Source: Microcella indica
Lineage (GTDB): Bacteria > Actinomycetota > Actinomycetes > Actinomycetales > Microbacteriaceae
NCBI RefSeq assembly: GCF_013414345.1
Contig: NZ_CP058670.1
Location: forward strand, 1-64,000
Reading direction: 5' to 3'
Length of the DNA: 64,000 nucleotides
Shown: in pieces, positions 10,147 through 11,832 of the stretch
Layout: each line of letters begins with the position of its first letter
Position numbering within the stretch: position 1 is the stretch's first letter
The notes under the pieces: generated by a model
The model's input: the letters and a program-made list of their open reading frames with translations, nothing else
Told to the model about the DNA's origin: nothing
Database searches by the model: none
Translations under genes and position numbers: made by a program

Positions 10147-10220
10147 GGGGATATAGCTCAGGCGGTTAGAGCGCTTCGCTGATAACGAAGAGGTCCGAGG
10201 TTCAAGTCCTCGTATCCCCA
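10147..10220 (+). tRNA. tRNA-Ile (anticodon GAT)
   Basis: A 74-base cloverleaf can be drawn: acceptor GGGGATA pairs with TATCCCC, the anticodon loop is CTGATAA, and the T arm contains GGTTCAAGTCC. CCA is not encoded. It follows gyrA and precedes tRNA-Ala, the usual actinobacterial order. A promoter with TACAGT at 10126-10131 lies just upstream. Confidence 0.97.
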
Positions 10221-10230
10221 CGCATTTTCT

Positions 10231-10290
10231 GTCACGCCGCCGATCCTGCGGCGTGACGACGCTTCCGCGTCGTGAGCGTGGTCACGACGC
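10231..10290 (+). terminator. tandem hairpins after tRNA-Ile
   Basis: Two hairpins follow the tRNA. The first pairs GTCACGCCGC (10231-10240) with GCGGCGTGAC (10248-10257). The second pairs GCGTCGTGA (10267-10275) with TCACGACGC (10282-10290). A short T-run (ATTTTCT) precedes the first. The first hairpin recurs almost unchanged after tRNA-Ala, so it is either a shared terminator or a repeat element. Confidence 0.6.
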
Positions 10291-10368
10291 TTCGCGCTTC
10301 AGGCCGACGTGGACGCGACTTCCGCATGACAGGACTCGACACACCGGGTTCGCTAAACTGAAGACCTC

Positions 10369-10441
10369 GGGGCCTTAGCTCAATTGGTAGAGCGCCTGCT
10401 TTGCAAGCAGGAGGTCAGGAGTTCGATTCTCCTAGGCTCCA
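10369..10441 (+). tRNA. tRNA-Ala (anticodon TGC)
   Basis: The 73-base gene folds with acceptor GGGGCCT against AGGCTCC, anticodon loop TTTGCAA and T arm GGAGTTCGATTCTCC. CCA is not encoded. A possible -10 hexamer TAAACT is at 10354-10359. Confidence 0.97.
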
Positions 10442-10452
10442 CGGTATTTTCT

Positions 10453-10511
10453 GTCACGCCGCCGCTCCTGCGGCGTGACGCGCTTCCGCGAGGCGCGTGC
10501 GAGCGCCTCGC
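10453..10511 (+). terminator. tandem hairpins after tRNA-Ala
   Basis: GTCACGCCGC (10453-10462) pairs with GCGGCGTGAC (10470-10479), the same stem as after tRNA-Ile. A second stem pairs GCGAGGCGC (10488-10496) with GCGCCTCGC (10503-10511). Its sequence differs from the second stem after tRNA-Ile but its layout is the same. Bases 10512-10638 beyond this hold no gene I can support. Confidence 0.6.
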
Positions 10512-10638
10512 TTCACGGTGCAGCTCACCACGCTGTGGCACAGCGCGCTCAAGCTCGACGCGCGACCGCATGCCTTGCGGTGCGCAGGGGGTGCTCACGG
10601 AGGCGTGCGAGCATGGGGCGCGAGCCCGAGAGGGGCTC

Positions 10639-10680
10639 CCGGACGAGGCATCCCGTACCCGGACAGCGACAAGACGGGTC
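10639..10680 (+). promoter_or_regulatory. guanidine-III (ykkC-III) riboswitch
   Basis: This 42-base leader has the conserved blocks CCGGACGAGG, CCGTACCCGG and GACAAGACGG of the guanidine-III class as I recall it. CCGG at 10639-10642 can pair with CCGG at 10659-10662 and CCCGT at 10652-10656 with ACGGG at 10674-10678, giving the class pseudoknot. The ribosome binding site GAGGAGG (10681-10687) follows at once, seven bases before the ATG of a Gdx-type exporter. Class knowledge: guanidine binding switches expression on. A separate hairpin GAGCCC/GGGCTC (10622-10638) lies just upstream. Confidence 0.9.
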
Positions 10681-10694
10681 GAGGAGGCTGCGTC

Positions 10695-11021
10695 ATGTCG
10701 TGGATCATTCTGGTGGCATCGGGGATGCTCGAAGCCGTGTGGGCGACCGCCCTCGGCGCATCGAAAGGCTTCACGCGTGTCGGGCCTACCGTCGTGTTCG
10801 GCGTCGCCCTCGCCCTCAGCATGGCGGGGCTGGCCTACGCGATGCGCGAGATACCCACGGGCACGGCCTACGCCGTGTGGGTGGGCATCGGGGCCGGTCT
10901 CACGATCCTCTGGGCGATGCCCACGGGAGCGGAGACCGCCTCGGTCGTCAAGATCCTGCTCGTGCTCGGCATCGTCGCGTGCGTCGTCGGGCTCAAACTG
11001 GTGAGCGACGCCGAAGCCTGA
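10695..11021 (+). CDS. gdx: guanidinium exporter, SMR family (Gdx/SugE)
   Basis: The 108-residue protein is a small multidrug resistance transporter with four membrane segments, expected to work as an antiparallel dimer exchanging guanidinium for protons. The essential membrane glutamate is Glu13 in SGMLEAVWA. GFTRVGPTV, IPTGTAYAVWVGIGA and the GLKL ending fit the Gdx/SugE branch more than EmrE. ATG 10695 has the strong site GAGGAGG. The riboswitch directly upstream independently supports guanidinium as substrate. Confidence 0.93.
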   Translation: MSWIILVASGMLEAVWATALGASKGFTRVGPTVVFGVALALSMAGLAYAMREIPTGTAYAVWVGIGAGLTILWAMPTGAETASVVKILLVLGIVACVVGLKLVSDAEA

Positions 11022-11080
11022 GCCCGGGGCCGCGCCGTCCCACGCAGGGCACGGGGAACCCAGCGCTCAGGGAACGCAGA

Positions 11081-11110
11081 AGCGGTGCCGCCCCGAAGGG
11101 CGGCACCGCT
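11081..11110. terminator. bidirectional terminator
   Basis: AGCGGTGCCGCC (11081-11092) pairs perfectly with GGCGGCACCGCT (11099-11110) around a six-base loop. It sits between the convergent gdx and the minus-strand gene that ends at 11127, so it can serve both. Confidence 0.8.
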
Positions 11111-11126
11111 CGTCGTGCAGCAAGAC

Positions 11127-11705
11127 TCAGGACTGGGCGGAGGTCTCCACCGGAAGATCGTCGTCCTCGGCCTCGACCCACAGGTCGTCGTCGGCGCGCA
11201 GCGTCTGCCACGCCGCGTAGGCGATGCCGGCCGCGGCGACGACGCCGAGCCCGATGAGGATGTAGGTGCCGGGGCCGGGCTTGGGCTTGACCTCGATGAG
11301 TCCGACGCGCTGACCGGCCCTGGTCGCGAGCTCGCGCCCGGACGCCGAAGCCGACTTGAGAGCATCCCGAAGCTGCTTGTTGCGCGCGATGTCGAGAACC
11401 GCGATCGCCGACCCGAGGGCCCCGGAGACGGCGGGAAGGACGTCGTCGGTGAACGTGGAGCGGGTCGCACTCGCGGCGGACCGCACCGAGCCGACGCCGG
11501 CGTCGATGCCCGGCTGGACGCGCTTCTCGTAGGCGCTCTTCACACGGGGTGCGACGTCATCGCGGGCGACGTTCGCCGCCTCGCGGCTCGCGGCCCGCAG
11601 AACCTTCGCGGCGTGGTCGAGAACCTCGCGCTGCTCGCTCCAGACATCCGAGGCTGACCCGCGGAGCTTCTTGATCTCGCGACGGCGCTTGCGTGACAGT
11701 CCCAT
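11127..11705 (-). CDS. single-pass membrane protein of unknown function
   Basis: The 192-residue product starts with a basic segment MGLSRKRRREIKKLR. The middle is a long, mostly helical, Ala-rich stretch (about 15-140). One membrane segment, YILIGLGVVAAAGIAYAAW, is near residues 151-170. A short acidic tail follows. ATG 11705 is preceded by GGAGGATGAGG on its strand. I do not recognise a named family; similar proteins of helical repeat plus one C-terminal membrane span occur in Microbacteriaceae. It faces the ppiA gene divergently. Confidence 0.75.
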   Translation of the reverse strand: MGLSRKRRREIKKLRGSASDVWSEQREVLDHAAKVLRAASREAANVARDDVAPRVKSAYEKRVQPGIDAGVGSVRSAASATRSTFTDDVLPAVSGALGSAIAVLDIARNKQLRDALKSASASGRELATRAGQRVGLIEVKPKPGPGTYILIGLGVVAAAGIAYAAWQTLRADDDLWVEAEDDDLPVETSAQS

Positions 11706-11832
11706 AGTCCTCATCCTCCAGCAGGTGGCGATCGGTGACCCGTCCATCCTGGCACTGATGCGGGAGGCTCCCCAACGGCACAGACCGAATGCTCAGGAAT
11801 CACCCCGAGTGGAGCGTGGAACAATAGGTGTC

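Follow-up and report, generated by a model that had tools for sequence, protein, structure and literature searches.

The results indicate that the window (the whole 64,000 nt stretch of Microcella indica DNA that was analyzed) contains a guanidine-III (ykkC-III) riboswitch that switches on the translation of a transcript carrying gdx as its single gene, and that the product of this transcript would be a dual-topology guanidinium/proton antiporter of the SMR type; we assign this reading a probability of roughly 0.94. The pair belongs to a known and ordinary combination, a guanidinium-sensing ON switch in front of a guanidinium exporter. A generic "multidrug" gene can thereby be annotated as a guanidinium exporter. 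In addition, the comparison contributes a model of the OFF state, in which a strand of the aptamer would pair across the start codon.

A search with cmscan yielded a match to the Rfam model RF01763 at positions 10619–10682 on the forward strand, covering the full length of the model (positions 1–67), with a score of 54.1 bits compared to a gathering score (GA) of 36 bits and an E-value of 2e-8 in the 64 kb. A preceding sequence-only reading had proposed this element and had named the lack of a covariance-model match as the refuting outcome; because the match to RF01763 is clear, this refutation fails. No second RF01763 match was found in the window or in the whole genome (2.59 Mb in a single contig), and therefore the match is not a chance occurrence. 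It includes the optional upstream hairpin of the model (GAGCCC/GGGCUC, 10622–10638, forward strand, from the cmscan alignment and the sequence), which lies outside the interval delimited in the sequence-only reading. The remainder, from 10639 to 10678 on the forward strand (CCGGACGAGGCATCCCGTACCCGGACAGCGACAAGACGGG), is an H-type pseudoknot with the core elements ACGA, GUAC and GACAAGAC. Within it, the three strings quoted in that reading, CCGGACGAGG (10639–10648), CCGTACCCGG (10653–10662) and GACAAGACGG (10668–10677), follow each other in the order given there, and the proposed pairings do form two interlocked helices: P1 joins 10639–10642 to 10659–10662 (CCGG/CCGG), and P2 joins 10652–10656 to 10674–10678 (CCCGU/ACGGG). 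In comparison with the crystal structure of the T. fusca aptamer, the ligand contacts C6, G7 and G17 as well as the core nucleotides A5, A8, A19, C20 and G29–G34 all agree with the consensus (nucleotide roles from PMC5696562). Two features count against the main reading, namely, the shortness of P2 (5 bp) and the outermost pairs of the model, which are unformed in the cmscan alignment. A match to the snoRNA TB9Cs1H2 was weak (20 bits, cut-off 35) and was discarded as a chance match.

Both helices covary across 127 distinct relatives. The P2 pair 16–37 is A-U in 63 relatives, C-G in 60 and G-U in 4, and is never broken; at 15–38, about 118 of the 127 have a standard pair (C-G, A-U, U-A or U-G). 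In P1, the pair 1–24 is C-G, G-C, U-A or G-U in all 127. A two-sided change in P2 separates Microcella alkalica (CAGU/ACUG) from the window and M. pacifica (CCGU/ACGG), which we read as compensatory change within the genus itself. Taken together, the score, the two interlocked covarying helices and the nucleotides of the pocket and core all point to membership in the guanidine-III class, and a response to guanidinium is predicted.

Riboswitches of this class are guanidine ON switches that free the Shine-Dalgarno (SD) motif and shield the transcript against RNase E (PMC12186494, PMC5696562). By analogy with the literature, the ligand, the ON direction and the antiport would be the same for the pair in the window. 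As long as no guanidinium is bound, GACAAGACGG, the 3' strand of the aptamer, would be available for pairing with the region around the start codon (GCGUC-AUG-UCG); the resulting OFF hairpin would close over the ribosome-binding site and the AUG, with the conserved GACAAGAC strand spanning the start codon (GUC-AUG-UC). Guanidinium, bound between G7 and G17 (5NWQ numbering), would stabilize the P1/P2 pseudoknot, which would capture the GACAAGAC strand and free the start site with its AUG. The product, a homodimeric dual-topology SMR antiporter, would then move guanidinium out of the cell in exchange for two protons.

The predicted OFF-state hairpin (10666–10701, forward strand; GCGACA-A-GACGGGUC..GGCU-GCGUC-A-UGUCGU) is thermodynamically plausible. 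In the RNAfold minimum free energy (MFE) structure, the start codon is bridged by the pairing of GCGACAAGACG with CGUCAUGUCGU, with −18.0 kcal/mol for the hairpin alone, and pair probabilities of 0.80–0.99 were obtained in four contexts. The hairpin is also present in the MFE fold of a longer stretch, which as a whole is no more stable than its shuffled versions (z −0.66). Directly before the start codon, 46 of the 67 linked SMR genes have the trinucleotide GUC, compared to 9 of the 116 long frames of the window that follow an SD motif (Fisher p 4e-18, calculated with relatedness ignored). The OFF pairing had a probability above 0.5 in 0.6% of the spacer-shuffled controls and in 28 of 64 relatives; that no more than 28 of the relatives reach this value counts against the model. 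Also against it, no covariation was detected between the aptamer motif GAC[G/U]G and the base at −4, next to the GUC; either state of the motif is combined with C, A or U at that base. When the aptamer was locked in the energy model, the AUG was freed (0.61–0.99), and the SD motif paired elsewhere (13–25% unpaired), so that SD release was not cleanly reproduced in silico. We infer the OFF hairpin, with its predicted exact pairing, from the supporting observations.

It is rather unlikely that mRNA decay or transcription, and not the initiation of translation, is the main level at which the switch acts. Such an action would fit the protection from RNase E reported for the class (PMC12186494) and the only partial occlusion of the SD motif in the predicted free state, whereas the aptamer ends at the SD motif, the pairing with the start codon is conserved, and a scan for promoters and terminators found no terminator-like hairpin near the element. 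The scan yielded no promoter either, which counts against the main reading.

Translational control of this kind would act on the gene immediately 3' of the riboswitch; the genome has no other SMR gene. The aptamer is followed at once by the SD motif AGGAGG (10682–10687, forward strand, 7 nt before the ATG) and then by a frame of 108 residues (10695–11021, forward strand; ATG at 10695, stop codon at 11019–11021), in agreement with the claim in the sequence-only reading that the riboswitch lies directly before the exporter gene. The protein matches PF00893 (Multi_Drug_Res) with 65.3 bits (cut-off 23.7). Among the NCBIfam models, SugE (NF008512) scored 88.3 bits, compared to at most 45 bits for the Qac/EmrE models and 29 bits for MdtJ, representing the polyamine SMRs; among the solved structures, Gdx-Clo (6WK5) scored 61 bits and EmrE 36 bits. 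Thus, the SugE/Gdx scores are about twice the EmrE/Qac scores. However, counting against the main reading, 88.3 bits falls short of the NF008512 equivalog cut-off of 126 bits, and therefore we claim only the wider Gdx subtype, not the narrow SugE equivalog. The residues E13, W16, S42, Y59 and W62, which are the site residues of Gdx-Clo (PMC9574504), are all present and are invariant in 45 single-gene rows; the protein has the central Glu, the Trp/Ser/Trp hydrogen-bond stack, the switch Tyr and the GXG fulcrum. These five residues are common to Qac proteins and hence do not discriminate between subtypes; the assignment to the Gdx subtype therefore rests on the profile scores and the riboswitch. 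The Arg/Lys charge bias of the protein is 0, as would be expected for a dual-topology homodimer.

The linkage of riboswitch and transporter was traced through relatives. In a sample of 200 genomes of the same family, RF01763 was present in 101 and an SMR gene in 142. For 68 riboswitch loci of the family that were read, an SMR gene is located directly downstream in 60 (46 as single genes and 14 as pairs), and another gene in 8. In the 80 closest homologues from named genomes (64–93% identity, the best being that of Microcella pacifica with 93%), the motif was found at most 60 nt upstream in 77 cases. M. pacifica also shares with the window the location of the locus beside tRNA-Ile and tRNA-Ala. 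Two genus mates (G137 and G190) have neither the riboswitch nor a window-type gdx; their SMRs are divergent, with no match to the window protein at E 1e-3. Thus, the riboswitch and the transporter come and go together. In G137 (L224 1967–3137, compared to 10147–11714 of the window), the same tRNA pair is followed directly by the convergent gene, with no SMR gene between them; in this genus, the riboswitch-gdx cassette is therefore an accessory element of the site.

Given these data, a promiscuous drug pump of the Qac/EmrE type that came under a guanidine switch by chance is a highly improbable identity for the transporter. Pfam and many Qac models do match (29–45 bits), and the subtypes cannot be told apart by their shared catalytic residues, but the SugE and Gdx-Clo scores stand well above those of Qac and EmrE, the guanidine riboswitch is common to nearly all of the nearest homologues, and the two genus mates that lack it have only divergent SMRs. 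The identification of a Gdx-type transporter in the sequence-only reading was thus borne out by the profile scores, the best solved relative and the site residues, and its choice of guanidinium over generic drugs as the substrate is supported. Hydrophobic derivatives of guanidinium are further substrates of Gdx proteins (PMC9574504), and Cs+ is transported weakly (PMC13064478). Because the cargo of these proteins is wider, the SugE score is below the cut-off and the site residues are not discriminating, guanidinium is proposed here as the most likely substrate of the 108-aa protein. It is also highly improbable that, instead of guanidinium itself, a derivative such as methylguanidine, agmatine or another compound is the physiological ligand of the aptamer: through a side opening in their structure, guanidine-III aptamers do accept methyl-, amino- and ethylguanidine as well as agmatine, with weaker binding of the larger compounds (PMC5696562), whereas in the window all the pocket and core nucleotides named above are consensus, with no variant at a ligand contact.

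The guanidinium-sensing switch and exporter in the window have close counterparts among characterized systems. The T. fusca guanidine-III aptamer (5NWQ, RF01763), which is also actinobacterial, forms the same H-type pseudoknot with the conserved core CCGGACGAGG..CGUACCCGG..GACAAGACG and likewise has the ribosome-binding site and the frame of an emrE/sugE-type gene directly behind it. The differences are that P2 comprises 5 bp in the window and 7 bp in T. fusca, that the window has C-G for G-C at 14–39, and that it carries one extra base before G29, as does the Rfam consensus. At position 11, in the triplex, the window has a C in place of the U of T. fusca; the T. fusca sequence used here agrees with the positions named in PMC5696562. 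The window protein can be aligned with Gdx-Clo/SugE (SMR-Gdx, 6WK5) over 104 residues without gaps; E13, W16, S42, Y59, W62, the G-I-G in TM3 and the organization as a charge-balanced single gene are common to both. The turn between TM3 and TM4 differs, with WAMPTGAETASVVK in the window protein, which belongs to an actinobacterial sub-branch, and CGIIFFKEPLTALR in Gdx-Clo, and the SugE profile score of the window protein lies below the equivalog cut-off. The paired riboswitch-linked SMRs of the family (e.g., L048 and L049) share the riboswitch and the binding-site residues with the window, but in place of one balanced gene they comprise two neighboring genes whose charge biases are opposite and whose products are predicted to form heterodimers.

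Such adjacent SMR genes, mostly with opposite Arg/Lys bias, were observed at 14 riboswitch loci of the family (L047–L051, L058–L063, L066, L068 and L071), and heterodimeric Gdx is the predicted product. Two riboswitch-linked gdx frames from one and the same genus contain an internal stop codon, L015 (G109) at the codon of W62 and L032 (G074) near residue 96, reflecting either decay or sequencing errors.

The 8 of the 68 family loci without an SMR gene lead to a protein of about 85 residues, NF047864 ("CBU_0592 family membrane protein"). These observations concern the relatives, and the pair in the window itself is conventional. CBU_0592-linked loci are L225–L243, and also L046, L052–L056, L065 and L067. 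In the literature library that was searched, no paper names CBU_0592. With a clade profile (A1) of the CBU_0592-type proteins, 20 genomes of 10 genera were retrieved among 400, and a guanidine-III-like RNA is present directly upstream of 19 of the 20 clade genes, the 20th gene being truncated. In 13 of the 19 RNAs, GACGACG replaces GACAAGACG, that is, A32–A33 (5NWQ numbering) are missing (GAC--GAC for GACAAGAC), and most of the shortened-core RNAs that were checked score below the Rfam cut-off. P1 is kept through a C-G to U-A exchange (CUGG/CCAG) in L230, L231, L233 and L242. In the 200-genome sample, none of the 11 CBU_0592-clade genomes has a riboswitch-linked SMR, compared to 93 of the 189 others (Fisher p 0.001, a comparison that takes all other RF01763 genomes as SMR-linked and ignores relatedness), and 6 of the 11 are without any SMR. 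These observations suggest either that the proteins of the clade may be a functional stand-in for Gdx or that the RNAs may be a variant riboswitch. Outside the family, no adjacency of CBU_0592 and riboswitch was seen among the matches listed for a 296-genome sample of the phylum. On balance, it seems somewhat probable that the guanidine-III regulon of the family has a second kind of target, in which the CBU_0592-type proteins may be a non-SMR guanidinium exporter or channel, or else the shortened RNAs may be a variant riboswitch with another ligand. If so, this would be relevant to the way in which bacteria that lack Gdx deal with guanidine.

In the neighborhood of the locus, a near-identical hairpin (TCTGTCACGCCGCCG.TCCTGCGGCGTGAC) lies behind each of the two tRNA genes, at 10226–10262 and 10447–10484 of the window, and may be a tRNA terminator that lacks a run of T. 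The convergent neighbor on the other side (11127–11714, reverse strand) encodes 195 aa with the hydrophobic stretch YILIGLGVVAAAGIAYAAW; it matches no Pfam or NCBIfam family and is kept in the genus mate G137 (L224).
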